Made by a program: the position numbers and the translations under genes. The notes beneath the pieces were generated by a model. That model was not told the origin of the DNA, did no database searches, and was given only the letters and a program-made list of their open reading frames with translations. Of a stretch of 41,758 bases of DNA, positions 4,096 to 38,850 are shown in pieces (within the stretch, counting starts at the first letter, position 1; each line of letters begins with the position of its first letter). The DNA comes from a virus. The DNA lies in IMG/VR virus record IMGVR_UViG_3300035523_000130, positions 1-41,758 of that record, one strand, 5' to 3'.

Positions 4096-6690
4096 TTACC
4101 AGTTGGCAGTAACAGAGAGTTGGCTCACCCCGACGTTGTGAGTCGGCTGAGCGGATTCGTAAAGCAGGCGGAACTTGGCGGCGCGACAAGTAAAGTCGCC
4201 AGCCATGAAGGGGAACCAGGCACTGTAGGCAACGCCATCAGGGCTAAGGGCTGCCAGCAGGGTGACGGTGGCGTCGTTGATGGCAAGACCATCTACTGAG
4301 TCCCAGTCATCTACTGGGCCGCGGAAGTCGATGAAATCGCCGGTATCAAAGGCCAGGGCCTGAATGTTGGCCGTAAAGCGCCGAGTGCCTACCGTGCCGA
4401 AGTCCATCACGGCGGCAAAGTCGTAAGTGCCGGCACTATTGACGCCACCAAGGGAGTCCAGCATTCCCCAGGCATCCACAAGAGCGGCCATGGAGTCGAT
4501 GGGAACAGAGCCGTCTAACTGGAGGCTGCTACCGACTACCACCAAGCCAGACTTGCTACCTGCCCAGGTGGTGTTTTCTGTCAGCGTCTGACTGTTAGGC
4601 AGCGCCGTCAACGTGCCGGCCGTCAGCACCCAACTTGCAATTCCGGTGGACCAGTTGCCGGTGCTGTCCTTGAACTTTGCCATGTAGGTGCCAGTCAGCA
4701 TGGGCAGCTGGCCAGAAGTCGCATCACCATTGAATTCGCCAACGGGGATACCGTTTTCCCAGTGTGCCCCGGTAGTCATTGGGGTCCAGCGCAATACGGT
4801 GCGGCCGCCAATGCGGACATCAAGATCCGGGCTTAAGTCCCATTGACCGAGGGCAGTTCCGTTGCTGGCAACTATGGTGAGATTGGCGACGTCCGCAGGC
4901 GCCGCCGTCAAGCCAAGGATCTCGACATTGGTACGGCCGGCCCAGTCGCTGCTCTTGCCAAGGGCGTTGATGGCAGAGATCCGGAAGTCCCAGCGGTTGG
5001 GAGCCAGATCGAATAGCTCATAACTTGTGGCCGGCGTGTCTGTGCTTTGCCAATCGGTGTCGGATGTGAGCTTCCACTGCAGCTGATATCCCACGATGAA
5101 CGGTGCATCAGCAGAAGCCCAGGAGACAACAGCCTTGACCTTAACGCCAGCACTACCCGTGGTCTGATACTGCACCTCAGCGATGGCGGGAACCCCAGGG
5201 GCCGCAGGTTGAGCTGTCGGATTGGGAAGATTGGTGACCAAGGTTGAGCGCGACGGCGTTGCGAAGTCAAACACATACACGCTGGGGTCGTACTCGCGAA
5301 CGACGACTTCTACCTCATCGCTCGACTTCGGCGACATCTGCAGCACGCGGAAGGGCTTATTGATCCAGCCAGGCGTGGAGTGTGTGATCGTCACCACATC
5401 ACCTACCTCGGTCCGCAAACCTTCCGGCAGCGCTGTAAAGCTAGCCGTTAGGCCAAAACGACTTTGCCGTACTTCCTGGATGCCAATGTAATTGGCGATC
5501 TCCATCTTGCTGGTAAAAGGAAGCTCGAGGGCCAACTCAGATGGGTTTCCACCATCGAGAGCGGTGTAGGTATTGTTGATGAATGGCAGTATCTGTGGCT
5601 GGTAGCGGTTCAGCTCATCGTAAAAACGCAACTTGGCACGGTTGTATAGCGCCCGCTTCTGCGGCCCTCCGAATTTCCATCCGCCCGTGATGTTGTCTTC
5701 GGTGAAATCGAAGGTGCTGCTCAACGCTTCCTCGAGGCGGAGCTTGAACAAACCACCCGAGTAGATCAGCATGCCGCGGCAGCTGGTTAGCATTGTCTTG
5801 AGGTTGTCGAAAGCCGAAGAATCGACATTGACAACCCCGTTCGACACGTACTTTGGACCGGAATAGCTGCCCAAGGCGACTGGGGCATCGCAACTGTTCG
5901 CTGCGGCAATGAAAGTGGCGTCGTCTATAGATGATTCAGCCACTCCCCGACCATAGCGGCTGTTGGTCAGGTAATCCCTGATCATCAGCGAAGGGTTGCT
6001 GCTGAAAGCCGTCAGCCCCGTCCTCGGGTCATAGAGTTTGCGCCCTTTGACTGCCGCAGTGATCACCGGTAGTCCGTGGAAGGCATCCTTGTTGTAGGTC
6101 AGCCGCACGTAGATGTAGGCAACCCCTCGCAGCCTGCAGCTCGACGTCCAGTCGGGGATTTCAGCCATGAGGTCTGGATCTGCCAGTTGCTCATCGCTAC
6201 CCAGATACTTCTTGACACGAACTACACCGGAATATGTACCGGAGGTAGCCACACCGTTAGCATCCAGGGCCCCCACAGCATTGCCGTCGAGATAGATCTC
6301 GTCGATGGACTCGATCTCACCCTCACCCAGCACAAGCACTACGTGGAAGAACTCGTTACTGCTACCAGATGCAGCTGCGAAAACCCGGGAACCGCCGACA
6401 ATCCGAGACCCGTAAATAACAGGCAAGGGTTCCACGTTAGAGGAGACATTGACCAAAGCCCCCTGAGCCGCCTGAGTAGCAGCAGAGTTGATTTTAGGAG
6501 TCTCTGCGTCCGGCGCAAGCGCGGAAGCGACTAGACCGCCGGCCATCAACCCGGCAGCACCAGCAACCAGTTCAACAGCCAGGCCACTTGTGAACAAAAA
6601 CTCCCCGCCAACAACCGCTGTCAAAGCCCAATCAGTGACAGCCGTTTCCACGACACTGGAAACGACCATTGCAACTGCTGCGCCGGCCAT
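4096..6690 (-). CDS. J-like tail tip / host specificity protein
   Basis: An 864-residue protein in the lambda gpJ position. It starts with an Ala/Val/Gly-rich hydrophobic segment (residues 1-60), followed by a hub-like region (NVEPLPVIYGSRIVGG near residue 95 and KGRKLYDPRTG near residue 216). Two fibronectin type III-like modules follow (about residues 490-600), then a beta-rich C-terminal domain. Proteins of this kind form the tail tip, start tail assembly and contact the host receptor. The gene begins at an ATG overlapping the stop of the acetyltransferase-like gene (TAATG). Confidence 0.85.
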   Translation of the reverse strand: MAGAAVAMVVSSVVETAVTDWALTAVVGGEFLFTSGLAVELVAGAAGLMAGGLVASALAPDAETPKINSAATQAAQGALVNVSSNVEPLPVIYGSRIVGGSRVFAAASGSSNEFFHVVLVLGEGEIESIDEIYLDGNAVGALDANGVATSGTYSGVVRVKKYLGSDEQLADPDLMAEIPDWTSSCRLRGVAYIYVRLTYNKDAFHGLPVITAAVKGRKLYDPRTGLTAFSSNPSLMIRDYLTNSRYGRGVAESSIDDATFIAAANSCDAPVALGSYSGPKYVSNGVVNVDSSAFDNLKTMLTSCRGMLIYSGGLFKLRLEEALSSTFDFTEDNITGGWKFGGPQKRALYNRAKLRFYDELNRYQPQILPFINNTYTALDGGNPSELALELPFTSKMEIANYIGIQEVRQSRFGLTASFTALPEGLRTEVGDVVTITHSTPGWINKPFRVLQMSPKSSDEVEVVVREYDPSVYVFDFATPSRSTLVTNLPNPTAQPAAPGVPAIAEVQYQTTGSAGVKVKAVVSWASADAPFIVGYQLQWKLTSDTDWQSTDTPATSYELFDLAPNRWDFRISAINALGKSSDWAGRTNVEILGLTAAPADVANLTIVASNGTALGQWDLSPDLDVRIGGRTVLRWTPMTTGAHWENGIPVGEFNGDATSGQLPMLTGTYMAKFKDSTGNWSTGIASWVLTAGTLTALPNSQTLTENTTWAGSKSGLVVVGSSLQLDGSVPIDSMAALVDAWGMLDSLGGVNSAGTYDFAAVMDFGTVGTRRFTANIQALAFDTGDFIDFRGPVDDWDSVDGLAINDATVTLLAALSPDGVAYSAWFPFMAGDFTCRAAKFRLLYESAQPTHNVGVSQLSVTANW

Positions 6691-7145
6691 TACTTGAGCC
6701 TCCGCTCAAAGCACACCTCGGGCGCCTCGCCACAGAGGGCCGTCAGCAGGTCAGCCAGGACGCTACCCCGCTTGGCACGCCAATAGACTTTGTAGCAACC
6801 CATTGCGCCCAGCGCCCGCTCGGAATAGCCGATCAGCTTGAGCCCCAGGGAGCCTTGCCGATATTCAGGAAGAAGGAAGATAACGTCATTCTTTGCCACA
6901 AGGCGATGCTTGTAGTGGGCATGAGGGCCCACAATGAAGCCCGAGTAACCCACCAAGCGATCATCGGCATAAATACCAATGATCCAGGCTTTGCCAACAG
7001 CTTCCAAATCAGCCCAGAAAGCCCAGTCAGGATTGATGTCGCCCATGTCCTTCTGGCCGACCTCGGCATAGTGCGGAGCAAACAAGGCCTCCCCCTCGAT
7101 CCGCAGCGTCTGCAGGTCGATACGTTTGAACTTAGCGGATTTCAT
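6690..7145 (-). CDS. GNAT-like acetyltransferase in tail module
   Basis: A 151-residue protein with the pattern of a GNAT fold: beta strands around IIGIYADDRLVGYSGFIVGP, then VIFLLPEYRQGSLGLKLI (acetyl-CoA loop region, R/Q-x-G-x-x-x-x-L) and a C-terminal strand CYKVYWRAKRG. The family transfers acetyl groups from acetyl-CoA. Proteins like this recur between tail-tip genes in siphophages; the substrate is unknown and a structural or regulatory role is possible. It is tightly packed between the J-like gene and a tail protein. Confidence 0.6.
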   Translation of the reverse strand: MKSAKFKRIDLQTLRIEGEALFAPHYAEVGQKDMGDINPDWAFWADLEAVGKAWIIGIYADDRLVGYSGFIVGPHAHYKHRLVAKNDVIFLLPEYRQGSLGLKLIGYSERALGAMGCYKVYWRAKRGSVLADLLTALCGEAPEVCFERRLK

Positions 7146-7780
7146 CAGTCGTAGATGACAGTGCTGAGGGTGTCGCCGGTGGGCTGCACGCCTGGTACGG
7201 TGGAGCTTCCGTTGGTGGTGCCCCAGGACAGATTCAGATTGGCCAGGCCAGGAACAAACTGGAAGCCAGTATCGCCAGGAAAAAAAACTTGCTGGTCCTG
7301 GTGATTGGTATGACGACCAGGCTTACGGTCGAAGTCGGCCCACTGGTTGGAGCACTCCATCACTAACGCACACTTTCCGGCCTGAGGATCGTCTTCAATC
7401 GATAGGCCATCCATGCGCCCCTCGAAAATAAGACCTGGCGATGTGATTACGCTCATGGTGTAGTCCAGTAGGGCCTTATAGATGCGGATCGGGCGGCCGA
7501 TGTAGGGCTTGGTCAGGGAGATGGAAATCCAGGTCTGATCGACGGCGCTGATGGACACGGTGACGCGTGGGATCTGCATGTCGTAGCTCTCGGTCAACCC
7601 CTGGAAGTCGAGGAAATGGCCGTTGGCTTTCCATGTATTGCCATTCCATGAAATATCACGCCAGGCATCGCACTGGTAGTAGCTGATATCGTCAAACTGT
7701 TCCTGAACTAGATAGACTGGTTGGTTGCGCGACTGGAGAAGCTCGGCCAGGAACACTGGAGAAAAGCCACGGCCTGCCAT
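7145..7780 (-). CDS. Tail assembly protein after tape measure (211 aa)
   Basis: A 211-residue protein with beta-rich composition and a motif (GRMDGLSIEDDPQAGKCAL) followed by FDRKPGRHTN and PGDTGFQFVPGL. The latter resembles the region seen in phage minor tail and baseplate hub-type proteins encoded between tape measure and J. No catalytic motif is apparent. Its ATG touches the stop of the gene before it. A structural tail-tip role is inferred from context. Confidence 0.65.
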   Translation of the reverse strand: MAGRGFSPVFLAELLQSRNQPVYLVQEQFDDISYYQCDAWRDISWNGNTWKANGHFLDFQGLTESYDMQIPRVTVSISAVDQTWISISLTKPYIGRPIRIYKALLDYTMSVITSPGLIFEGRMDGLSIEDDPQAGKCALVMECSNQWADFDRKPGRHTNHQDQQVFFPGDTGFQFVPGLANLNLSWGTTNGSSTVPGVQPTGDTLSTVIYD

Positions 7781-8379
7781 TACCAGGTCTCCACGAAATC
7801 AAGGCTCAACGACACCATGTCGCCCGGCTCGTACTGGGGCTGCACGTCGTCGCTGGCTAGGGCTACGGTAAAACTTGGAGACGTCTGCACAGCGGCACCA
7901 TCAGCCGGGGATGCCAGCAGGGGCGGCTCAATGGTCAAGGTGGCATTGCCGGCGCCATCAGACGACGCGTCGGCAGTGACCATATAGACCTTGGTATGAC
8001 CGTAGAAGCTAATGTAGTCGCCAGCCTTGAGCACGCCTACGGCATTGGCAGTCCATCCCCGCGTAGCCACGGCATTACCGACGATGCCGCCACCATTTAC
8101 GACAGGAATACCGCTCAGGGTACCGAGGGGCGCAATCACAGCCGACGGCAGAGCTAACTGGAAACTCCCATACTGGCCGCGCTGGGCAAGGCAGAAGGCA
8201 ATGATTGACGCCAGCTGGGCGCGTGTCTTCCCCTGCCACGAAAGGGATATCTGCCAGCGCTGGATACCAACCGAGCGAGTAACACGCCGGAAGCTGTGGG
8301 CGGTAGAGACCCGGGTCGGCTGGGTACTCTTGATGCTCGCCTTAGCCGCCTTGGGCGTGGATGGGAATGTTCCGCTCAT
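7780..8379 (-). CDS. Distal tail / minor tail protein (199 aa)
   Basis: A 199-residue protein directly after the tape measure gene, with a 4-base ATGA overlap. A basic N-terminus is followed by a Trp-rich strand region (RWQISLSWQGKTRAQL), then Gly/Ala-rich beta segments (about residues 90-185). Position matches the first minor tail or distal tail protein of siphophages. One of four copies of a palindromic motif found in this window lies in the gene (7877-7890). Confidence 0.6.
   Translation of the reverse strand: MSGTFPSTPKAAKASIKSTQPTRVSTAHSFRRVTRSVGIQRWQISLSWQGKTRAQLASIIAFCLAQRGQYGSFQLALPSAVIAPLGTLSGIPVVNGGGIVGNAVATRGWTANAVGVLKAGDYISFYGHTKVYMVTADASSDGAGNATLTIEPPLLASPADGAAVQTSPSFTVALASDDVQPQYEPGDMVSLSLDFVETW
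7876..7889. repeat. Copy 1 of 14-bp palindromic motif TGSAGACGTCTGCA
   Basis: One-mismatch copy (TGGAGACGTCTGCA) of a palindrome that occurs perfectly at 29244-29257 and 34019-34032 and again with one mismatch at 22134-22147. This copy is inside a tail gene. Candidate site for a DNA-binding protein of the phage. Confidence 0.45.
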
Positions 8380-11623: not shown

Positions 11624-12274
11624 TTAACCACGGGAGATGGGGCCAGTGACTACCAAGGTAGCCGTGGAACGCAGCACCTTATCTACGCCAGCGGCTGGCT
11701 CGGTGACCTTTTGCACGAAGCCCTGGAAAGCTCGGATCTTCATGTTGGTACCGGGATAGACCTGTTTGAACACTACGATGGCCTGAGCAGCACGAGCAGC
11801 GATCAGCGCCAGCTGGCCAACATCAGTGTCATCAGCATCGAAGGTCATGGCGTAGTTGCCATTGTCTTGCAGGCCTTGACGTTTTTCCTTGGCAGGGGAG
11901 TCCAGGTTCGTCACGTCGATCACATTGGAGGTGCCGCCGTCAGGGGTGAAGTCCTGGCAATTGCCGATCTTGCTGAACGTCTGCGGGGTAGCGGCGCCGG
12001 TGGTGCCGGCAGCAGCGAAACCAGACGAGTCAATATTGACGGAGAAACCTGAACCAGTAGGCGCAGGCGAGGCCTGGACAATGCCGATGAGGCCATTGAT
12101 CTCGGGCATGTTGGTAACAGCGCCGAAGATCACCACATCGCCAGCAGAAAGGGTATTGGTTGCAGATATAGCAGCCTTGGTGGCCTTGGTGATGGCGGTG
12201 ATGGACAGTGCAGCGCCCGGGGTGCCGGACACATAGAACTTTGACTGCTGAGCGACCTGAGCGGTACTGGTCAT
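11624..12274 (-). CDS. Major tail (tube) protein
   Basis: A 216-residue protein rich in Ala, Thr and Val with beta-strand character throughout and an LDSPAKEKRQGLQDNGNYAMTFD segment typical of tail tube proteins (discriminating loop then strand). It lies between the tail completion gene and the chaperones, matching siphophage gene order. A strong Shine-Dalgarno (AGGAG) precedes the ATG. A terminator hairpin just upstream suggests it may have its own mRNA. Confidence 0.82.
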   Translation of the reverse strand: MTSTAQVAQQSKFYVSGTPGAALSITAITKATKAAISATNTLSAGDVVIFGAVTNMPEINGLIGIVQASPAPTGSGFSVNIDSSGFAAAGTTGAATPQTFSKIGNCQDFTPDGGTSNVIDVTNLDSPAKEKRQGLQDNGNYAMTFDADDTDVGQLALIAARAAQAIVVFKQVYPGTNMKIRAFQGFVQKVTEPAAGVDKVLRSTATLVVTGPISRG

Positions 12275-12296
12275 GATGGCGATCTCCTAAATAAAA

Positions 12297-12317
12297 AAGC
12301 CGCCTTGCGGGCGGCTT
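12297..12317 (-). terminator. Intrinsic terminator upstream of tail tube gene
   Basis: A perfect 8-bp stem AAGCCGCC / GGCGGCTT with a 5-nt loop; the minus-strand product ends in a T run (12291-12298). It lies after the tail completion gene and before the tail tube gene. Confidence 0.88.
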
Positions 12318-12349
12318 GTAGCGATAAAACGATGGGTTAAACAGTGGGG

Positions 12350-12706
12350 TCAGTGGTACCAAAAGCTGTATTCGTAGATGATGCGGCGCAGCTTCACCTC
12401 GGGTTCGTACTGGCTGCGGCGGCTGCGTTGGACGCCCGTCAGCGTTCCTGAGGAAAAAGCCGCTGCAATGGCGTCTTCGACCGCTTTACCTGCAACGATG
12501 GCGTCCATGTACTTATCGGCATAGACATCGATCTGGATGATGCTTTGCTGAATCGGCACACCATCGGACAAGGTGTTTTCCGTAGGGCTGACGATCTCTT
12601 GATAGACGCCGTAAGGTTTGGATGGGCATTGGGGCGCAACGTGGTCATAAAAGTGATTGTTCAGGGCTGGAGAAACTACGCTGACAAGGGCTTCCTGGAA
12701 GATCAT
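12350..12706 (-). CDS. Tail completion protein, DUF3168-like
   Basis: A 118-residue protein with the features of the DUF3168 (gp17-like tail terminator) family: a conserved aromatic/proline segment (PSKPYGVYQEI), QSIIQIDVYA, then a C-terminal RRIIYEYSFWYH. These proteins cap the tail tube where it joins the head. It follows the gp10-like gene with a 4-base ATGA overlap. Confidence 0.75.
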   Translation of the reverse strand: MIFQEALVSVVSPALNNHFYDHVAPQCPSKPYGVYQEIVSPTENTLSDGVPIQQSIIQIDVYADKYMDAIVAGKAVEDAIAAAFSSGTLTGVQRSRRSQYEPEVKLRRIIYEYSFWYH

Positions 12707-27622: not shown

Positions 27623-27651
27623 ATTATCACGTTCGTGTTTTTTTCTGTCAA
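27623..27651 (-). promoter_or_regulatory. Early lytic promoter (TTGACA-N17-GATAAT)
   Basis: On the minus strand TTGACA (27651-27646) is separated by exactly 17 bp from GATAAT (27628-27623). The start point should fall at about 27616-27617. Both hexamers overlap operator sequences, so binding of a repressor would block RNA polymerase directly. Confidence 0.9.
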
Positions 27652-27687
27652 CACCATCGTGATAGACCAAATCATCACAATTAGGTT
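27626..27687. promoter_or_regulatory. Three operators spaced 24 bp apart in the genetic switch
   Basis: Quasi-palindromic 14-mers begin at 27626 (ATCACGTTCGTGTT), 27650 (AACACCATCGTGAT) and 27674 (ATCACAATTAGGTT, degenerate right half). Spacing is exactly 24 bp, slightly more than two helical turns. The third abuts the start codon of the repressor gene and may serve in its autoregulation. The same motif pair recurs at 28785-28822. Confidence 0.82.
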
Positions 27688-28074
27688 ATGACGGAATTTA
27701 AGGAAAGACTCATTACAGCCCGCGAGACTGCAGGGCTAACACAAACGGAGCTAGCCAAGAAAGCTGGCTGCCGCCAGTCCGTCATTGGAATGCTTGAATC
27801 GGGGGCTCGCCGCAATACCAAACACCTGCTTGGGATAGCAAAAGCCCTATCAGTATCTCCAGAATGGCTAGAAACTGGTCAAACATCACTGACTGCTTGC
27901 GAACCAACAGCAAGTTATGGACTTCCTAGCCCAGAAGAGGCAATAGTCCTTCAGGCATTCCGCTTAGCCAGTCCAGATATGAGGCTAATGTGGCTAACCC
28001 AGGCAAAGATCATCATAGAGACAGCCGACACCCCCTCAATGCTCTCCGGCAAAAACGGGCCCAAGCCAGGATGA
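27688..28074 (+). CDS. Phage repressor, short XRE-family HTH
   Basis: A 128-residue protein with an N-terminal XRE-type HTH: RETAGLTQTELAKKAGCRQSVIGMLESGARR (about residues 10-40). The C-terminal part is short and has no S24/LexA-like Ser-Lys peptidase domain, so RecA-stimulated self-cleavage is not expected. Induction would need an antirepressor or another signal. It is divergent from the Cro-like gene across three operators. There is no clear Shine-Dalgarno before the ATG, so its mRNA too may be leaderless. Confidence 0.82.
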   Translation: MTEFKERLITARETAGLTQTELAKKAGCRQSVIGMLESGARRNTKHLLGIAKALSVSPEWLETGQTSLTACEPTASYGLPSPEEAIVLQAFRLASPDMRLMWLTQAKIIIETADTPSMLSGKNGPKPG

Positions 28075-28742: not shown

Positions 28743-28764
28743 AACCCGCTGCGGCGGGGTTTTT
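28743..28764 (+). terminator. Terminator ending the repressor transcript
   Basis: Stem AACCCGC / GCGGGGTT with one bulged G and a 4-nt loop, followed on the plus strand by TTTTATT. It insulates the repressor transcript from the promoter-operator module 20 bp downstream. Confidence 0.82.
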
Positions 28765-28784
28765 ATTGCCTATTAAAATGAATT

Positions 28785-28825
28785 ATCACATTCGTGTTGA
28801 CACAGTAAAACACATTCGTGATAAT
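28785..28825 (+). promoter_or_regulatory. Second promoter-operator module, driving the DGR operon
   Basis: Operators ATCACATTCGTGTT (28785-28798) and AACACATTCGTGAT (28809-28822) are 24 bp apart and overlap TTGACA (28797-28802) and GATAAT (28820-28825), separated by exactly 17 bp. The layout is the same as the cro promoter read in the opposite direction, and the fixed positions are identical; only spacer bases differ. The start point should be near 28832, about 40 nt before the first gene. Confidence 0.9.
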
Positions 28826-29279: not shown

Positions 29280-29648
29280 ATGGCACTCATCCTCAAACTG
29301 CAAAAGCAGATCGTTGATCAGCAGACAAAACTGCTCAACGCCATTCCCCGGCTACGCATGGCTGAAGACCTTTCCGATCTGCTGCGCAATGCCGGCTTCA
29401 ATGCCCAAGCCCAGGCCAATCTGGACGAAATGGCCCTGACGGTCATTGTCTTCATCCTCTCCCCCTTTGCCCCGGCCATCAGCGCCATTGAGCATGCGGG
29501 CTTTGCCATGGTCCATGTTGGCACGGTAGATGGCGACTCCCTCAACCTGCGCAGCTTCCGCGCCGAGGCCAATGGCCTTGAGCTGTCAGTCGTCATTCAG
29601 GCGCCCAGCAAAACCACCCTGGAACTGGTCAAGCCATGCGCAGCCTGA
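29280..29648 (+). CDS. Hypothetical early protein (122 aa)
   Basis: A 122-residue protein with a helical N-terminus (LILKLQKQIVDQQTKLLNAIPRL) and a mixed C-terminal part (SAIEHAGFAMVHVGTVDGDSLNLRSF). The ATG at 29280 is chosen because it follows the preceding stop by one base; upstream in-frame codons lie within the other gene. No motif recognised. Confidence 0.65.
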   Translation: MALILKLQKQIVDQQTKLLNAIPRLRMAEDLSDLLRNAGFNAQAQANLDEMALTVIVFILSPFAPAISAIEHAGFAMVHVGTVDGDSLNLRSFRAEANGLELSVVIQAPSKTTLELVKPCAA

Positions 29649-29761: not shown

Positions 29762-30139
29762 ATGGAACACGAACTAAAGCAAGGGCAAGCACTTGTCATC
29801 GTCGGGGCCCAGGGCAGCGGAAAGACCACATTGGCTCGGAAGATTGCCGAACGGTATGGTTCGTTTATCGAGGTCAGTGCTGATCGATTGGAATCGCATC
29901 AAGGACTGAACGATCTTCTGGCACACGCCAAGCAAACAGTAATTGTTGAAGGCTTCCCAGAGAACAAAGAACAGCAGTGCTGGCTTAAGGCACTAATTAC
30001 TACCCCCACCATCAAGGTAGAAAAAAAGTACGGCGTGGCGGAAACGGTCAAGGTGCCGAACTTCATCTTTTGTACCAGCGATGCTGATCCCCTTCCAAAG
30101 ATTGAGCCAGGCCGTCGCTTCCGAGTGATCAAGCTATGA
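29762..30139 (+). CDS. Small P-loop ATPase-like protein (125 aa)
   Basis: A 125-residue protein with a clear Walker A motif VGAQGSGKTTLARKIAERYG (about residues 15-34) and a Walker B-like strand KQTVIVEGFP (near 60). KVPNFIFCTSDADPLPKIEPGRRFRVIKL closes the protein, like the end of an AAA-type core. It is half the size of normal AAA proteins, so it may be a compact kinase-like or accessory ATPase. AGGAA precedes the ATG. It is two genes before the DGR target genes. Confidence 0.75.
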   Translation: MEHELKQGQALVIVGAQGSGKTTLARKIAERYGSFIEVSADRLESHQGLNDLLAHAKQTVIVEGFPENKEQQCWLKALITTPTIKVEKKYGVAETVKVPNFIFCTSDADPLPKIEPGRRFRVIKL

Positions 30140-30321
30140 ATCGGGCGATCACGATCATCAAGGACCGCAAGCCCGTCAGCGGCCCTCATCGCGCAGCCAC
30201 TAGCCGCAGGGAGCTAATCCCCTGCATGTGCTGCCTTAAGCCCTTCCCCAGCGAAGACCGGCAACGAAACCGCCTTTGCACTTCCTGCAAAAGCAAACCC
30301 ACCAGTCCTTATTCAATCTGA
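30136..30321 (+). CDS. Small zinc-finger-like protein (61 aa)
   Basis: A 61-residue basic protein with two Cys pairs spaced like a zinc ribbon (CMCC near residue 30-33 and CTSCK near 49-52). The ATG overlaps the preceding stop (ATGA). Probably a nucleic-acid or protein adaptor; function unknown. Confidence 0.7.
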   Translation: MNRAITIIKDRKPVSGPHRAATSRRELIPCMCCLKPFPSEDRQRNRLCTSCKSKPTSPYSI

Positions 30322-30332
30322 AAGGAATCACC

Positions 30333-30950
30333 ATGAATGCACCCGCACCAACCATCATCCCCGCCATTGGCGCTACCGTCCCTGGTGGCTTCTTTGCTGG
30401 CACCATTCTGATTGATGATCAACGTTATGGCTTGGCAGTACCGCCCAAAGCCTTGGGGGAACACAAGCCCACCATCTGGATTCCTAACTACAAGGATATC
30501 CCTGGTGCCAAATCTTTCTACGACGGCCTAGCTAATACCCGGGCAATGGCTGAGGCTGGCAGCAAGCTGGCCCAGTGGGCGCTTGAACTGGAAATCGATG
30601 GTTGCACCGATTTCTACATCCCAGCTCAAGATGAGAAGGAAATCATCTACCGGGTATTCAAGCCTGGTACTGCTAAGAACTCCCAGTACGCGCGCTCCGG
30701 CATCAACTTGTCAGCCCTGCCGCCGACTCGTCCTTATTCGCTGGAAAACCCTGCTCAGACGGTTATCGAGGCTTTCCAGGAGGGAGGTGTCGAGGCTTTT
30801 GAAGCTGATGCCTACTGGACATCCACGCAGCACGCAGCCATTTCCTATTTTGCCTGGTACCAGGGTTTCAGCTACGGCGTCCAGTACGGCCTCAACACCA
30901 ACCTCAAGCTGCCTGCTCGCGCCGTCCGCAGATTTCATTTACCCCTTTAA
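30333..30950 (+). CDS. DGR variable protein 1 (C-type-lectin-like, DUF1566/Lcl type)
   Basis: A 205-residue target protein. The N-terminal 150 residues contain an Ala/Pro-rich start, AGTILIDDQRYGLAVPP and LEIDGCTDFYIPAQDEKEIIY. The variable C-terminus has YWTSTQHAA, then AWYQGF and KLPARAVRR, the layout of DUF1566 (Lcl) domains that adopt a C-type-lectin fold. Residues altered relative to the template are I170, Y172, F173, G178, S180, Y181, V183, Y185, G186, L187, L191 and V198; N188 and N190 keep the template codon. No signal peptide. The ATG at 30333 has AAAGGA 7 nt upstream; a longer frame is rejected. Confidence 0.9.
   Translation: MNAPAPTIIPAIGATVPGGFFAGTILIDDQRYGLAVPPKALGEHKPTIWIPNYKDIPGAKSFYDGLANTRAMAEAGSKLAQWALELEIDGCTDFYIPAQDEKEIIYRVFKPGTAKNSQYARSGINLSALPPTRPYSLENPAQTVIEAFQEGGVEAFEADAYWTSTQHAAISYFAWYQGFSYGVQYGLNTNLKLPARAVRRFHLPL
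30826..30933 (+). repeat. Variable repeat VR1
   Basis: A 108-bp segment at the 3' end of target gene 1 aligned without gaps to TR 32032-32139. I count 17 differences, all at TR adenines (A to G, T or C). The GC-rich 3' part (CTGCCTGCTCGCGCC) is fully conserved and would serve as the initiation-of-mutagenic-homology region. Confidence 0.96.
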
Positions 30951-30982
30951 TCCTTCATCCATTTCTTTCAGGAGATAACGCC

Positions 30983-31471
30983 GTGCGCGTCAATCAAAAC
31001 GAGTCGATAACGCTGGCTGTTGCTGGCGCTGATGTCACCATCCCGGCGGCTACTTTGGCTGATCTGTGGATCAAGAAGCTATTAGCCAGCAGCGCGCAGA
31101 TGACTGATAGCAGCATGCTTATCAAGCAACCCCCTCTAGCCGATGGAGAGATTTACCTCGGCGCCATCATCACTCCCAAGATTCGTAAACACATCATCTT
31201 GCTGCCCGGTGAAAACGCTGATGCCAATTGGAAGCACCAAATGGAGTGGGCAGCCAGCATAGGTGGCCAGCTTTTCGACCGAGTAGAGGGGGCACTTCTC
31301 TTTGCCACCATGCCCGAGCAATTCAAGAAAGAAGCGTACTGGACCCGCGAGCAGCCCGCAGCCATTTCAGGTTGTGCCTGGTACCAGGGTTTCACCAGCG
31401 GCCTCCAGAGCAGCAGCGACACCGACGGCAAGCTGCCTGCTCGCGCCATCCGCAGCGAATCCATTGAGTAA
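30983..31471 (+). CDS. DGR variable protein 2 (DUF1566/Lcl type)
   Basis: A 162-residue second target, GTG start at 30983 with AGGAG upstream. IILLPGENADANWKHQMEWAASIGGQ and FDRVEGALLFATMPEQFK are typical of the family of lectin-fold DGR targets. The variable end begins after AYWTREQPAAI and has AWYQGF and KLPARAIRS. Altered residues include P125, I128, G130, C131, G136, T138, S139, L141, S143-S145, D146, D148 and G149. It shares only the fold and the VR with protein 1, so the two have distinct scaffolds fed by one template. Confidence 0.9.
   Translation: MRVNQNESITLAVAGADVTIPAATLADLWIKKLLASSAQMTDSSMLIKQPPLADGEIYLGAIITPKIRKHIILLPGENADANWKHQMEWAASIGGQLFDRVEGALLFATMPEQFKKEAYWTREQPAAISGCAWYQGFTSGLQSSSDTDGKLPARAIRSESIE
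31351..31455 (+). repeat. Variable repeat VR2
   Basis: A 105-bp segment aligned without gaps to TR 32033-32137. I count 17 differences, all at TR adenines. The 3' conserved GC-rich part matches TR exactly up to CGCAG. Confidence 0.96.
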
Positions 31472-31501: not shown

Positions 31502-31873
31502 ATGGCACTCCACACCGAGCTACCGATACATAAGACAGCCTACGACCTGCTGGACATTGTCGTGGATCTCATAAAAAACATGCGCAGGGACTTTAAGCAC
31601 TCCCTGGGCGGTGAGTTGCGCGATGAATGTCTGGCAGTCCTAGTGTCCATCTTTCGAGCCAATGTCGCCCGAGAAAAAACGCCTCATCTGGACCAGCTCA
31701 TTGAGCATATTCAGGTAGCAGTTCTCCTCTTGCGCCTTGCACGGGATAAGCGATTCATTTCGACCGAGCAATTCGCTCGAACGATGCCGCTCACCCAAAG
31801 TATCGGTAAACAGGCTGTGGCATGGCGCCGTTCCGCCGCATCGCCCGATTCACGGGGGTCAAGGCTCCCATGA
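31502..31873 (+). CDS. avd: DGR accessory variability determinant (Avd-like)
   Basis: A 123-residue basic, all-helical protein of the four-helix-bundle type found in DGRs: YDLLDIVVDLIKNMRRDFKHSLGGELRD near the N-terminus, then FRANVAREK and HIQVAVLLLRLARDKRFISTEQFA. Avd forms a pentamer that binds the RT and the TR RNA and is needed for retrohoming. Its place between VR genes and TR matches the usual DGR order. The ATG at 31502 lacks a strong ribosome-binding site. The last few residues could be a read-on beyond the folded domain. Confidence 0.85.
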   Translation: MALHTELPIHKTAYDLLDIVVDLIKNMRRDFKHSLGGELRDECLAVLVSIFRANVAREKTPHLDQLIEHIQVAVLLLRLARDKRFISTEQFARTMPLTQSIGKQAVAWRRSAASPDSRGSRLP

Positions 31874-32031
31874 CTGTGCGAATTCTTGATCTGGTCGTGC
31901 CGCTGGCTCACAAGGCCACCGCTATGTGCATCACGGAGACTACCGGCAGCCTGCCGGAACAGTCCGGCGCAGTTTCCTTGCTGATCGGCCAGAACGGACT
32001 TCGGCAGGGCGACGTAGATAGCACGATAGGT
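31874..32031 (+). other. Non-coding leader between avd and TR
   Basis: 158 bases with no convincing gene and several GC-rich inverted repeats (for example around 31944-31970, where GGCAGCCTGCC is followed by GGAACAGTCCGGCG). In other DGRs the functional RNA extends beyond TR on both sides and folds to bind Avd-RT, so this is probably part of the template RNA. Confidence 0.5.
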
Positions 32032-32139
32032 CGCAGCACGCAGCCAATTCAAATTATGCCTGGTACCAGGATTTCAACAACGGCAACCAGAACAACAACA
32101 ACACCAACAACAAGCTGCCTGCTCGCGCCATCCGCAGAT
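32032..32139 (+). repeat. Template repeat TR
   Basis: A 108-bp template containing about 37 adenines. Read in the VR frame it encodes A-N-S-N-Y-A-W-Y-Q-D-F followed by nine AAC codons among ACC, GGC and CAG, then KLPARAIRR and a stop. AAC is the codon that adenine mutagenesis diversifies most widely without creating stops. TR lies upstream of, and partly inside, the RT reading frame. Confidence 0.96.
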
Positions 32140-33255
32140 GAAACACGGCACCACCCTGCTGATCTTTTTATTGCACTGGTACAGGCCTATTACGCCTGCC
32201 GGGAGAACAAACGCAATACCGAAAGCGCCCTGGACTTTGAGCAGCACCTAGAGCGAAACCTGTGCAACCTTTACGATGAACTGGTCGAGGGAACCTATCG
32301 TCCTGGTCGCAGCATCTGCTTTGTTGTCACCCGCCCGAAGCCTCGCGAGGTATGGGCTGCCGACTTCCGGGACCGCATCGTTCACCACCTGCTCTACAAC
32401 CATGTTGCGCCACGGTACTACGCCAGCTTCATCGCCGATTCCTGCGCTTGCATTCCGGGCCGGGGCACCCTCTACGCCGCCAAGCGGCTGGAATCAAAAG
32501 TGCGCAGCATTACCCAAAACTGGAGCAAGCCAGCCTTCTATCTCAAGATGGATGTGGCTAACTTCTTTGTCTCCATCAACAAGCAGGTTCTATATGAACT
32601 ACTAGCAGCCCGAATCACTGAGCCCTGGTGGTTAGGGCTGACCGATACCATCCTGTTTCATGACCCGCGCCAGAACTTTGAGTATAGGGGCCGTATCGAT
32701 CTGCTTGGCCTAGTGCCGGAACATAAGCGCCTGACCAACCAGCCAAGTCATCTAGGGCTACCCATCGGCAACCTGTCCAGCCAATTCTTTGCCAACGTTT
32801 TTCTCGACGTACTGGATCAGTTCTGCAAACACAAGATCGGCGCTAAGCACTACATCCGCTATGTGGATGATTTTGTCCTTCTGCATGAATCACCACAGTG
32901 GCTAAACGATGCGAAAGAGCAAATTGAAGCTTTTGTTATCAAACGCCTCGGTCTTCGCATCAACCCCACCAAGACCATTCTTCAACCAATAGATCGTGGG
33001 ATTGATTTTGTCGGGCACGTCATCAAGCCATGGCGTACTGAACCCCGCAAACGTACCGCCAACGCGGCCATGACACGGGTCATGACAGTACCTACCGATT
33101 CTTTGTTTGAAACCGCCAACAGCTACTTTGGCTTGTTCCGCCAAGCCACCGCCAGCCACCAGCAACGGTGCCGACTGGCAAATCACCTTCGCCGACGAGG
33201 CCACACCATCAACGGCGCCATCACCAAAACCTACCGCAGGAGAAACCACGCATGA
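32056..33255 (+). CDS. DGR reverse transcriptase
   Basis: A retron/group-II-like RT. Conserved blocks are RPKPREVWAADFRDRIVHHL (fingers), FYLKMDVANFFVSIN (catalytic Asp), GLPIGNLSSQFFANVFLD, and YIRYVDDFVLL with YVDD at 32860-32871. The SQ in place of QG in motif 4 is the DGR signature linked to low fidelity. The start is uncertain: the only downstream ATG before the conserved domain is at 32056, inside TR, and the frame stays open to 31822. If 32056 is used, TR is translated as a Thr-rich leader. The stop overlaps the ParB-like start (ATGA). Confidence 0.93.
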   Translation: MPGTRISTTATRTTTTPTTSCLLAPSADETRHHPADLFIALVQAYYACRENKRNTESALDFEQHLERNLCNLYDELVEGTYRPGRSICFVVTRPKPREVWAADFRDRIVHHLLYNHVAPRYYASFIADSCACIPGRGTLYAAKRLESKVRSITQNWSKPAFYLKMDVANFFVSINKQVLYELLAARITEPWWLGLTDTILFHDPRQNFEYRGRIDLLGLVPEHKRLTNQPSHLGLPIGNLSSQFFANVFLDVLDQFCKHKIGAKHYIRYVDDFVLLHESPQWLNDAKEQIEAFVIKRLGLRINPTKTILQPIDRGIDFVGHVIKPWRTEPRKRTANAAMTRVMTVPTDSLFETANSYFGLFRQATASHQQRCRLANHLRRRGHTINGAITKTYRRRNHA

Positions 33256-35792
33256 ACGCACCTACCCCGGCTGGCGCCTTGGCGCTGCCAAGCATCCCCC
33301 TGGTCGACATTACCCCCTCGCCCACCAACCCCCGCAAGCATTTCGACGAGGGCGCTCTAGCTGAACTGGCAGCTACCATCAAGGATCATGGCGTCATCCA
33401 GCCCATTACTGTGCGCCCTAACCCCAAGGGCGAACCGCTTTATGAAATTGTGGTGGGCGAGCGGCGCTGGCGTGCTTCCCGGCTCGCTGGCATGACGGAC
33501 ATTCCCGCCTTCTGGCGCGAACTCACCGACCAGCAGGTGCTTGAGATCCAGATCATCGAAAACCTGCAGCGCAACGACGTGCATCCCCTGGAAGAAGCCG
33601 AGGGCTACCGTTTACTGATGGAAGAGCACGGCTATACGGTCGAACAGATCGCCAACAAGATCGGCAAGGACTTGCAGAAGAAGTCCTACGTCTATGCCCG
33701 CCTCAAACTGCTGGACCTATGCCAGGAAGCCCGCAACATCATGTTCGAGCGCAAGCTCGATGCCTCCACCGCCCTGCTAATCGCCCGCATCCCGACCCCA
33801 GGCTTGCAGAAACAGGCACTGAAGCAAATCGCGGTCGAAGGCGCAGAACCAATGTCCTACCGGGCTGCCAAAAACCACATTCAGCATAACTTCACCATCA
33901 GCCTCAAACAGGCTACCTTTAGCCTGACCGATGCCAGCCTGGTGGAAACCGTGGGCAGCTGCCAGGACTGCACCAAGCGTAGCGGAAATGCCCCTGAGCT
34001 TTTCGGCGATACCGACGATGCAGACGTCTGCAGTGACACCAAGTGCTTCGATGCCAAGAAAGCCGCCAAGCAACAGAAGCTGATTGATGAAGCCTCCGCC
34101 AACAGCATCCCCATTTTGCGCGGTGACGATGCCAAGGCTGTCATGCCATGGGGCCGTAATACCCTTGACGATGAAAAGTACATCGACCTGGACGATGTGG
34201 CTGATGGTGATGTAGAGGAACGTACCTACCGCGAGATCCTTGGCGACACTGCTCCAGTGTCAGCCCTCATTGAGTCGAATGGACACCAAGAGAAGGGCAT
34301 TCTGATTGAAGTAGCAGAACCCTCTGCCTTGGCCGAGGCCTTACAAAAGGCAGGCTGGAAGCCGCAAGAGCAACCCGAGGAAAACACTGGCGACACGCCA
34401 CGCTTCCCGACAGTTCGCGTCATTACCCCAGAGCAGATCGAGGCCGAGCACAAGGAACGGGAAGCCAAAGAGCGCGAGAACAAGATCGAATCCGCATGGC
34501 GCGAACGGCTGATTGATCAGTGCCTATTTACCCTACCCGACACCCTGTTCGACCAGGACACCCTGGAAAAGACTATCAAGATCTTTGCTGGCCAATGGGT
34601 CGACATGGAAGCCGAGTTTTCTGGCATCGACGAGGATTTAGTTGCTAAGTACGGTCACCACATCCCAGAAGAGTGCGACCAAGAAGAAGCAGCGGCCACA
34701 TTGATCAAAGCGATGCAGCAGTGGGATCTCGGCAAGGTGATCACCTACCTGTTCGAGTCCATCATTCGACAACGCTCCGAAAAGATCGTCGGCTTCTACT
34801 GGAAAGATGGGCAGCAATTCCGCGATCAGCCCAATACCACCATGGCACTGGCCGAATTCCTTGGCATTGACCATACCCGCATCCGCGCTCAGGTAGTTTC
34901 AGAGATCAACGGCGATTCCCAGCCGAAAACCAACGGGAACCCCTCTAAAAAGCCCAAGAAAACCACCAAATCGACCCCTTCTGGCCTTGCCGAAACTGCC
35001 CCTACCCCAAAAATGGCTGCGCCGGCGGCGAGGATAGGTGACGCGGAGGATGGACTGGAAGCCCGCCCGAACATCCGCTACGCCCTATGGGGCTCCGCTG
35101 GCTGGATAACCTGGAGCGGTAAGGGGAAGAAGCCCGCTTGGATCGAGCAATGGCTGGCGAATGGAAAAACCCTGGAAGACCTGGAAGCAAAGGCAGATCC
35201 AGCGCCCGCTGCGCAGGCGAACGAAAACCCCACCTCCGACGCGACCGGGGATAACTCCGGCGAAGAAGAGAATCTAGCCCAGGCTGCGCCTGGGAACGAG
35301 TCGCCTGTGGCGACGGGTGCAGACTCAACCAATGGCGACCTCTTCGGCCAGGTCAGCGGCGACTGGCCCCAGCCCAACGAGCACGGTGTCTATGCCGCCG
35401 ACCAGGCCGAGCTGATCACTATCGACACGAAGAAGGCCAAGATAGAGGGCTACGTGCTGCAGATCGGCGCCGAGTCCTGGATCTGGGCCGTGGACACAAC
35501 GCGCAAGGGAGCAACCACCGGAGGCAGTTCGTCCCCCCTCACCGCTCACCAGGTCACCGCCACGCGTGATGGAGCGATCGCCATAGTCGGCCAGGAAGCC
35601 TCTCAGCACGTCTACCGCTGGATCGATAGCGATGGCATCAATGCTGACTTCAAGCGCATCAAGGCCTGGGCCGATGAGCTGCTGGTGAATGGCGAGAACG
35701 CCGAGTGCCTGGCTAAGAAACCAGAGGAGAAGAAAGCCACGATCTCCGTGCCCGTCAGTGAGTGGCCCTTCCCCACGGGGAGCCGGCCATGA
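33252..35792 (+). CDS. Very large ParB-like protein (846 aa)
   Basis: An N-terminal ParB/Spo0J domain (about residues 12-110) contains PSPTNPRKHFDEGALAEL, VGERRWRASRLAGM and ENLQRNDVHPLEEAEGYRLL. An HTH follows (YTVEQIANKIGKDLQKKSYVYARLKLL) and a Cys-containing segment (SCQDCTKRS ... CSDTKCFD, about 230-265). After that comes an unusual long region with charged helices and two low-complexity linkers (about 560-610 and 640-710). Ordinary ParB proteins have about 300 residues, so the C-terminal half is extra. It may bind the palindromes listed here. No ParA-like gene is present. The ATG at 33252 overlaps the RT stop. Confidence 0.85.
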   Translation: MNAPTPAGALALPSIPLVDITPSPTNPRKHFDEGALAELAATIKDHGVIQPITVRPNPKGEPLYEIVVGERRWRASRLAGMTDIPAFWRELTDQQVLEIQIIENLQRNDVHPLEEAEGYRLLMEEHGYTVEQIANKIGKDLQKKSYVYARLKLLDLCQEARNIMFERKLDASTALLIARIPTPGLQKQALKQIAVEGAEPMSYRAAKNHIQHNFTISLKQATFSLTDASLVETVGSCQDCTKRSGNAPELFGDTDDADVCSDTKCFDAKKAAKQQKLIDEASANSIPILRGDDAKAVMPWGRNTLDDEKYIDLDDVADGDVEERTYREILGDTAPVSALIESNGHQEKGILIEVAEPSALAEALQKAGWKPQEQPEENTGDTPRFPTVRVITPEQIEAEHKEREAKERENKIESAWRERLIDQCLFTLPDTLFDQDTLEKTIKIFAGQWVDMEAEFSGIDEDLVAKYGHHIPEECDQEEAAATLIKAMQQWDLGKVITYLFESIIRQRSEKIVGFYWKDGQQFRDQPNTTMALAEFLGIDHTRIRAQVVSEINGDSQPKTNGNPSKKPKKTTKSTPSGLAETAPTPKMAAPAARIGDAEDGLEARPNIRYALWGSAGWITWSGKGKKPAWIEQWLANGKTLEDLEAKADPAPAAQANENPTSDATGDNSGEEENLAQAAPGNESPVATGADSTNGDLFGQVSGDWPQPNEHGVYAADQAELITIDTKKAKIEGYVLQIGAESWIWAVDTTRKGATTGGSSSPLTAHQVTATRDGAIAIVGQEASQHVYRWIDSDGINADFKRIKAWADELLVNGENAECLAKKPEEKKATISVPVSEWPFPTGSRP
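34019..34032. repeat. Copy 4 of 14-bp palindrome (perfect TGCAGACGTCTGCA)
   Basis: A perfect palindrome inside the ParB-like gene, in the codons just before the CSDTKC motif. Many chromosomal and plasmid parS sites are short palindromes near or in par genes. Confidence 0.6.
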
Positions 35793-37560: not shown

Positions 37561-37941
37561 ATGAATACACTCGACCTCCAGGCTGCTGCCGACTTCTTGG
37601 GGCTGCATAAAAACACCCTCCAGGCCAGAGCCAAGGCCGGAGAGATACCTGGTGCAAAGATCGGGAAGGAATGGCGATTCATCGACGTGGATCTGGCCCA
37701 GTACCTTCGTGATCAATACCCGGCGAATAAGATCGAGGAGAAGCAGTCGTGTCGCTCTACAAAGTCGAAGACATCTGGTACGTCTATATCACGCCACCTA
37801 AAGGGGGCCAGCGAATTAGACGCACTACTGGAACATCCGACAAAAAGGAAGCCCAGCGCATCCACGACGAACTCAAGGCAGAACTCTGGAATCGGAAAGT
37901 CAGTGGTTCGTATCTTTCCGACGCTCTCACACGGTGGCTGA
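37561..37941 (+). CDS. Excisionase-like MerR/HTH DNA-binding protein
   Basis: A 126-residue frame whose first 60 residues form an excisionase-type winged helix: LDLQAAADFLGLHKNTLQARAKAGEIPGAKIGKEWRF and VDLAQYLRDQYP. The family bends DNA at att sites to favour excision. The frame continues 64 codons past the integrase start, where its composition becomes Ser/Thr/Lys-rich, so the true functional part may be just the N-terminus. The ATG at 37561 is preferred to a start nine codons earlier. Confidence 0.72.
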   Translation: MNTLDLQAAADFLGLHKNTLQARAKAGEIPGAKIGKEWRFIDVDLAQYLRDQYPANKIEEKQSCRSTKSKTSGTSISRHLKGASELDALLEHPTKRKPSASTTNSRQNSGIGKSVVRIFPTLSHGG

Positions 37942-38819
37942 AGCAGAAGCCGAGATCCAGGAACGAAAAAAACGCCCTTAAGCAGTTTCTCCGGCTCTAT
38001 CCTGATCGCCCTATCAATGACATCACCGGGCCAGATATCGCTGAGGCCCTGGAAGACAAGTCAGCGGCTACAGCAAACCGCACTATCTCGATAGTGAGGG
38101 CTGCGCTCAACCTTGAGCATGAAGCCCAAAAGATCGGCAAGCCACCCAAAATCCCCACCAGAAGCGTCAGCAATGCCAGATTGCGCTGGCTGACTCGGGC
38201 TGAGTGGGATCGCCTCTATAAAGCCCTTCCGGCCCATATCAAGCCGATGGCCAAGTTTGCGGTATCCACAGGATTGCGCCAGGCCAATGTATTTTCATTA
38301 CGCTGGGCCGATGTGGATATGGGGCGCCGCGTGATGTGGGTTGAAGCAACCCAGGCCAAGGCCAGGAAGGCTATTGGCATTCCTCTGTCGGACGACGCGA
38401 TGGAAGCCTTGGCTTCTGTTAGTGGACAGCATGAGGATTTCGTTTTTACCTACCGAGGAAAACCTGTCGAATCAGTCAAAACAGCCTTTGGCAAAGCCCT
38501 GGCCAGGGCCGGCCTTGGTCAATGGGTTGCTGCAGACGATCCCAAGGATGAAAACGACAAGGTATTTGAGCCCAACACCACCTGGCACGATTTACGTCAC
38601 ACCTGGGCAAGCTGGCATGTGCAAGCCGGAACACCTCTGGCCGTGCTCAAGGAATTAGGTGGTTGGGCTACAATGGATATGGTTCTGCGCTATGCACATC
38701 TGGCGCCGGACCATTTGGCTTCCTGGGCGAACAATGCCACAAAGTACGCCATAGGAAATCAGGAAACCCAGGCAGCCTCGGTAGCTCAGTGGATAGAGCG
38801 ACCCCCTCCTAAGGGGTAG
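37749..38819 (+). CDS. Tyrosine-recombinase integrase, ends inside tRNA-Arg
   Basis: A 356-residue site-specific recombinase. The N-terminal arm-binding region (LYKVEDIWYVYITPP) is followed by a core-binding domain (about 50-130) and the catalytic domain. Catalytic residues are Arg177 (STGLRQANVFSLRW), His280 and Arg283 (WHDLRHTW), Trp306 and Tyr315 (LRYAHLAP). The GTG at 37749 has GGAG about 8 nt upstream. The last 14 codons (VAQWIERPPPKG and two before) are read through the 5' half of the tRNA gene, so that tail is set by the attachment site and is unlikely to matter. Confidence 0.95.
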   Translation: MSLYKVEDIWYVYITPPKGGQRIRRTTGTSDKKEAQRIHDELKAELWNRKVSGSYLSDALTRWLKQKPRSRNEKNALKQFLRLYPDRPINDITGPDIAEALEDKSAATANRTISIVRAALNLEHEAQKIGKPPKIPTRSVSNARLRWLTRAEWDRLYKALPAHIKPMAKFAVSTGLRQANVFSLRWADVDMGRRVMWVEATQAKARKAIGIPLSDDAMEALASVSGQHEDFVFTYRGKPVESVKTAFGKALARAGLGQWVAADDPKDENDKVFEPNTTWHDLRHTWASWHVQAGTPLAVLKELGGWATMDMVLRYAHLAPDHLASWANNATKYAIGNQETQAASVAQWIERPPPKG

Positions 38820-38850
38820 GTCGGACGTTCGATTCGTCTCCGGGGCACCA
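38775..38850 (+). tRNA. tRNA-Arg (anticodon CCT), prophage attachment site
   Basis: A 76-nt cloverleaf with encoded CCA: acceptor GCCTCGG pairs with CCGGGGC (one G-U), the D arm contains GCTC/GAGC, and the anticodon stem ACCCC/GGGGT encloses CTCCTAA with anticodon CCT for Arg AGG codons. The T arm carries GTTCGATTC. Because the prophage lies on the 5' side, the 5' part and upstream promoter region in this lysogen are phage-derived. The exact att core cannot be fixed without the left junction. Confidence 0.95.

Follow-up and report, generated by a model that had tools for sequence, protein, structure and literature searches.

A DGR with two lectin-fold targets in the repressor–integrase arm of temperate phages

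In the textbook account, phage DGRs vary the tail tip so that it keeps pace with receptor changes. The 41,758-base prophage fragment analysed here (the whole stretch, called the window) carries a DGR whose two targets lie between a CI-like repressor gene and the integrase gene. The question is what diversified lectins do when they are encoded there.

The DGR and its place in the prophage

The minus strand of the window carries, leftwards from about 27.6 kb, a Cro-like gene and genes for a CII-like activator, primase/helicase, HNH protein and terminase. The terminase, portal, capsid, tail tube, tape measure, distal tail and J-type central fibre genes are all on this strand, at 1–22 kb, and so are the lysis genes. 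The plus-strand arm runs from the repressor gene to the excisionase and integrase genes, and what looks like host DNA follows beyond integrase and tRNA-Arg. Both DGR targets lie in this arm (Table 1), so the claim of an earlier sequence-only reading that they are outside the tail module was borne out. Since the record begins within the lysis cassette (1–438), the left attachment site is absent from it. An acetyltransferase-like gene (6690–7145) was seen inside the tail module, adjoining the J fibre gene.

Table 1. Positions of the DGR and of the control and arm features in the window
Feature	Position	Strand	Remarks
oR/pR	27623..27663	-	same promoter and operator layout as oL/pL, opposite direction; pR hexamers 27651-27623
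CI-like HTH repressor	27688..28074	+	HTH_3 6.9e-11; phrog_4 transcriptional repressor
Terminator-like hairpin	28745..28758	+	between repressor unit and pL; sequence match
oL	28784..28825	+	two operator-like sites, 28786-28798 and 28810-28822, over pL; 42-nt inverted copy of oR region
pL-type promoter	28797..28825	+	TTGACA-17-GATAAT, 11/12 consensus, sigma-70-like; heads DGR arm
P-loop protein, DUF5906/VapE-like	29762..30139	+	Pfam; just 5' of targets
CxxC-pair protein	30136-30321		target neighbour, upstream of target 1
DGR target 1	30333..30950	+	205 aa; single compact C-type lectin (Lcl_C-like) domain, predicted; phrog_4245 E 4e-24
VR1	30826-30933	+	within target 1
DGR target 2	30983..31471	+	162 aa, GTG start; beta-beta-alpha extension (8-42) and C-type lectin domain (50-162), predicted
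VR2	31351-31455	+	within target 2
Avd accessory protein	31502..31873	+	PF22296 bAvd 2.6e-11 (above gathering score); phrog_3206 'Avd protein of DGR' 4.7e-30
RT-15 structured RNA (RF03018)	31839..32033	+	175 bits vs gathering score 82; directly 5' of TR, overlaps avd end
Template repeat (TR)	32032..32139	+	ungapped A-tolerant comparison with both VRs; non-A mismatches = 0
DGR reverse transcriptase (RT)	32056..33255	+	RVT_1 3.6e-16; phrog_1423 2.5e-115
Excisionase (xis)	starts 37534	+	
Tyrosine integrase	37749..38819	+	arm end; 3' end overlaps tRNA-Arg
tRNA-Arg	38775-38850		likely attachment site

The cassette contains a DGR-type RT, Avd, a TR that differs from the VRs at adenines only, and C-terminal VRs in a C-type lectin fold. 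When each VR was compared with the TR over 104 nt, all 17 mismatches of VR1 and all 17 of VR2 faced TR adenines. This excludes chance as the source of the pattern, and it agrees with the earlier assignment of both open reading frames, at these places, as DGR targets. A scan of both strands found no further VR in the window (VR scores 91 and 88, next best 18).

The first in-frame ATG of the RT past the RT-15 element is at 32056, and the conserved domain starts at about 32167. As the RT reading frame passes through the TR and this ATG lies within it (32056–32139), the TR may encode the RT N-terminus; a TR of this kind has been reported in phage ACA1. All 15 clade relatives tested had RT-15 in the same place, immediately 5′ of the TR, and a relative at 50% identity gave a weaker match. 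In the BPP-1-type control, RF03022 is on the 3′ side of the TR (TR 7672–7790, RNA 7810–7942), as it is in BPP-1, whereas the window has RT-15 on the 5′ side and no match to the Phage_DGR RNA (RF03022) at gathering score. Thus, the lineage differs from the BPP-1 type in structured-RNA position too. The Rfam short description of RT-15 does not name it as a DGR RNA.

The promoters, operators and terminator of Table 1 are sequence matches. The exact promoter pattern occurred at pL and pR only and 0 times in shuffles, and the operator-like WCACNNNCGTGWT was matched 5 times, at 4 window positions, where 0.31 matches were expected; all are at pL/pR. No other sigma-70-like plus-strand promoter was found between pL and the RT gene, and gene spacing is tight from 28.8 kb to that gene, a stretch that includes a 122-aa open reading frame at 29280–29648. 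As in a lambdoid pL (left) operon, and judged from sequence alone, the repressor gene lies between two divergent promoters sharing operator-like sites, and the arm ends in excisionase and integrase genes beside the attachment site. The DGR presumably sits in a pL-type operon repressed by CI. Given such a lambdoid immunity layout, the CI-like repressor should silence the DGR in the lysogen.

These elements strengthen the earlier description of the operon as an early one. The same reading had given the targets P-loop and zinc-finger neighbours; Pfam supports the former, but the CxxC-pair protein had no zinc-finger family match in Pfam and PHROG profile searches. Directly 3′ of the RT gene, a single protein (33168–35792) combines ParB N-terminal and HTH domains with an H-NS C-terminal domain, and similar ParB-like genes occur in the arms of about 26 relatives.

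Related loci, their mobility and their activity

A search with an RT alignment found 80 bacterial-genome loci and 80 viral-contig loci. The RT score used was passed by 135 loci (bacterial, viral and named phages), with the window counted twice, as L001. Some surveyed loci are cut by contig ends, and since the survey includes some near-identical contigs, the locus counts are not independent events. The related RTs, from about 130 loci, are mostly 60–73% identical, nearly all at least 60%, and most of the loci are in beta- and gammaproteobacterial prophages. Two VRs were present in 88 of the 135 loci, three in 27, four in 1 and one in 9, and none was found in 10; the extra VRs are on the same strand, 2–10 kb upstream.

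In all 26 loci with a detected repressor, its gene lay upstream of the DGR on the DGR strand, and in all 52 with a detected integrase, that gene lay downstream, mostly (46 of 52) on the same strand. All 21 matches to late genes, from a small reference set, were on the opposite strand and at least 6.5 kb from the DGR. On the evidence of these sequences the arrangement recurs in more than 100 loci. We also looked for a hidden tail VR, but no locus had a VR on its minus strand. A search for partner genes conserved across the arms gave Avd, RT and targets as the only widely conserved neighbours.

The controls showed a different location. In the BPP-1-type phage control PV330005 the target–avd–RT set belongs to the late block, immediately ahead of the lysis genes, and the baseplate cluster of the ACA1 control holds an antireceptor–avd–RT set; the DGRs of the BPP-1-type and VHML-type controls are in late or baseplate clusters. 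The window, by contrast, has its target genes between pL and integrase and not in the late structural operon, in agreement with the contrast to BPP-1 drawn from the sequence alone.

Inverted oR copies between repressor and DGR were clear also in QDWS, L147 and L167, and in L167 an inverted copy is close 5′ of a target. The signal in L056, L133 and L170 was also above that of their own shuffles, and duplicated operators in the remaining loci were at chance level. The L130 signal was discarded as an artefact, the repressor of that locus being at the edge of its contig. The annotators of Magia mark a terminator just 5′ of gene 47. Both this terminator and the chance-level operator signal in most other loci count against the reading of the targets proposed below.

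The same DGR occupies the repressor–integrase interval of phages Magia, QDWS, LPPA56, Cruim01 and Haboob. Of these, Magia and QDWS are contractile and possess baseplate J genes (Magia also has a sheath gene); Haboob and Cruim01 are non-contractile by annotation, and the window is of the non-contractile type as well. Between Burkholderia phage Magia and Shewanella phage QDWS, Avd is 96%, RT 92% and one target 90% identical, whereas the late proteins compared had no BLAST match at E 1e-3. The cassette has therefore moved between phages with unrelated virions. Magia, QDWS, Haboob, Cruim01 and the window each have their own fibre or tip genes. The host of QDWS is uncertain, as its record and that of 'Hujiaoplasma phage zrk29-1' (OP650936.1) have equal length and equal matches under two stated hosts.

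Pairs of near-identical relatives differed only at TR adenines, which indicates that the DGR is active in relatives. In L142 and L145 the RT, TR and upstream DNA are identical, while one of the three VRs shows 14 differing sites, each of them a TR adenine; L148 and L149 likewise differ at 14 such sites. In both pairs there was no other difference in that VR, the TR or the 300 nt upstream. Between L134 and L168 there were 17 and 14 TR-adenine differences.

In the phages Medea1, Aurca01 and U7, paired targets persist in the arm with neither Avd nor RT beside them, and this retention without the mutator suggests that the targets have a function of their own. Pseudomonas phage D3 has an orphan, frameshifted gene of the target family, orf68 (30081–30641 of its locus, minus strand), just downstream of cI at a distance of about 0.7 kb and related to genes of Haboob and U7. 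These findings bear on the idea that the arm only offers the mobile cassette a safe place to land, and that the targets work either extracellularly once the cell has lysed or together with another arm protein. The cassette is indeed mobile and self-contained, but the same arm is used in unrelated phages, and orphan target pairs have persisted in it where RT and Avd were lost. Both observations indicate a function in the arm, and we regard the landing-site idea as very improbable.

Structure and possible role of the targets

AlphaFold2 models built on alignments of 35 (target 1) and 36 (target 2) relatives had pLDDT values of 94.6 and 92.5. According to the models, target 1 consists of a lone C-type lectin domain and lacks any N-terminal domain, and target 2 is a lectin domain preceded by a beta-beta-alpha extension. 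Among the best solved matches (Foldseek/VIA) was the C-terminal domain of Legionella Lcl (8q4e), with Z 12.4 for target 1 and 13.2 for target 2; target 2 also matched Bdellovibrio Bd2740 (Z 13.4). Both predicted models have the Lcl_C/DUF1566 (PF07603) fold. Neither sequence reached the Pfam gathering cut-off for that family (target 1, 17.5 bits vs 34.9; target 2, no match); 31 of the 36 members of the target 2 alignment matched it at E <= 0.01. All 258 VR-bearing open reading frames in the survey matched C-type lectin profiles. Their median lengths are 137 aa for the T2 type and 195–204 aa for the T1 types, the longest has 342 aa, and 42 of the 258 have 125 aa or fewer, the shortest ranging over 103–125 aa. 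Fusion of targets to fibre shafts was looked for and was seen in 0 of 258.

A crude test found no lipobox or signal-peptide-like N-terminus in targets 1 and 2, and no lipobox was found among the 258. The lectin fold and the lack of signal peptides were thus as first read from the sequence. The two N-terminal domains that had been described as different fared less well: target 2 has its short extension, target 1 has none, and the 42 shortest relatives are bare domains. By the models, no tail-docking domain precedes the lectin domain in target 1, and target 2 adds only the short extension.

The location in a block presumably shut by the repressor suggests that the targets act inside the cell soon after infection. 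The window holds a two-target DGR of an RT clade that occupies the repressor–integrase arm of temperate phages of Beta- and Gammaproteobacteria, and we give about even chances to the reading that its products are early, probably cytoplasmic, mutable binders of a factor from the host or a rival. The operon would come on when the phage infects or is induced, and the lectins would be made early and probably stay in the cytoplasm. One TR feeds the two VRs (two to four in relatives) with adenine-only changes, and the RT, made from the same transcript, would re-edit the targets in replicating genomes, so that progeny could carry new binding surfaces. The lectins would then most likely be binders that block a variable intracellular protein, the putative ligand being a host defence factor or a protein of a competing phage. 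The wider proposal, an antibody-like intracellular system in which early, CI-repressed, self-mutating lectins block host defence or rival phage proteins and DGRs serve counter-defence besides adsorption, is more tentative, and we hold it to be somewhat doubtful.

Some findings count against cytoplasmic binders. Relatives of target 1 that are not DGR targets occur in tail or late modules: QHH_30 of Halomonas phage QHHSV-1 lies in the tail gene cluster, and a PMBT3 protein is flanked by a minor tail protein on one side and by the lysis genes on the other. In other phages the same fold is also a component of long tail-fibre proteins (BFVD), and phage DGR targets known so far are mostly receptor binders (PMC8144416). 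The lectins could accordingly be virion accessories, made early from pL and later attached to tail or capsid, where they would widen adsorption like Mtd without docking domains; transcription of the pL operon may last long enough for the products to reach virions. A scan with the PMBT3 protein for further tail-module relatives returned the PMBT3 phage alone, tblastn with the QHHSV-1 protein returned, besides itself, arm genes only, and the PMBT3 paper holds no virion proteomics. Against a virion role, the same cassette is carried by phages with contractile and with non-contractile virions between which no shared tail proteins were detected, no VR is in or near any late gene, and the repressor–integrase location is conserved. 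Targets as short as 103–125 aa leave no room for a docking module. Because of the QHHSV-1 and PMBT3 relatives and the fold in tail-fibre proteins, we keep a virion role as the main alternative, though a rather unlikely one.

The lectins could also be made in the lysogen and serve superinfection exclusion or act on host factors, by analogy with rexAB in lambda. Extra targets can sit near the repressor gene (Magia gene 57; D3 orf68), and read-through past the hairpin at 28745 is possible. However, the repressor unit of the window ends in this terminator-like hairpin, the DGR lies beyond oL/pL, and the only sigma-70-like plus-strand promoter upstream of the DGR beyond the repressor carries operators. 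This weakens a role in the lysogen, which we consider improbable. Thus, among the roles first offered for the targets, intracellular binders and separately expressed virion attachments are both retained, and lysogenic proteins have lost ground.

Whichever role applies, this is a large, active and mobile DGR lineage that places small lectin-domain products in the repressor–integrase arm and moves between phages with unrelated tails. If the targets are cytoplasmic binders, phages diversify intracellular proteins, which would be a new arm of the phage–defence conflict and a natural source of evolvable binders. The isolated phages Magia, Haboob, LPPA56 and Cruim01, together with the orphan-target phages Medea1, Aurca01 and U7, make the question testable.

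Comparison with known systems

We found no paper describing DGR targets in a CI–integrase arm; the search covered few subscription papers and PMC8144416 without its supplements, and an earlier notice is possible. In PMC8144416, the viral targets of clades 1, 4 and 6 are assigned mostly to tails and those of clade 3 are mixed.

The BPP-1 DGR (mtd-avd-TR-brt) shares with the window RT, Avd, TR, a C-terminal VR in a C-type lectin fold and adenine-only changes. Its target, however, is a multi-domain tail tropism protein of the late block, whereas the window targets are bare or nearly bare lectin domains of the repressor–integrase arm.

The DUF1566/Lcl_C targets of bacterial DGRs have their domain family in common with the window targets, and DUF1566 is reported as the commonest DGR target domain (PMC6642488, PMC8144416). 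The cellular DUF1566 targets described there are mostly membrane-anchored or exported, whereas those of the window are not and belong to a phage operon. D3 orf68 is of the same lectin family and shares the integrase arm and the place just downstream of cI; it differs in that no RT or Avd was found in the part of D3 examined and in that its frameshift falls within the VR-like end.

Burkholderia phage Magia is a myophage. Its announcement names genes 47 and 57 as targets, suggests adaptation or host-range change, and does not discuss the early location (PMC7883833); gene 46 (12163–12627 of the Magia locus), unnamed there, is a third VR-bearing target. The DGRs of Magia and the window have RTs of the same clade (67% identity), lie in the same repressor–integrase arm and diversify short lectin-fold targets.
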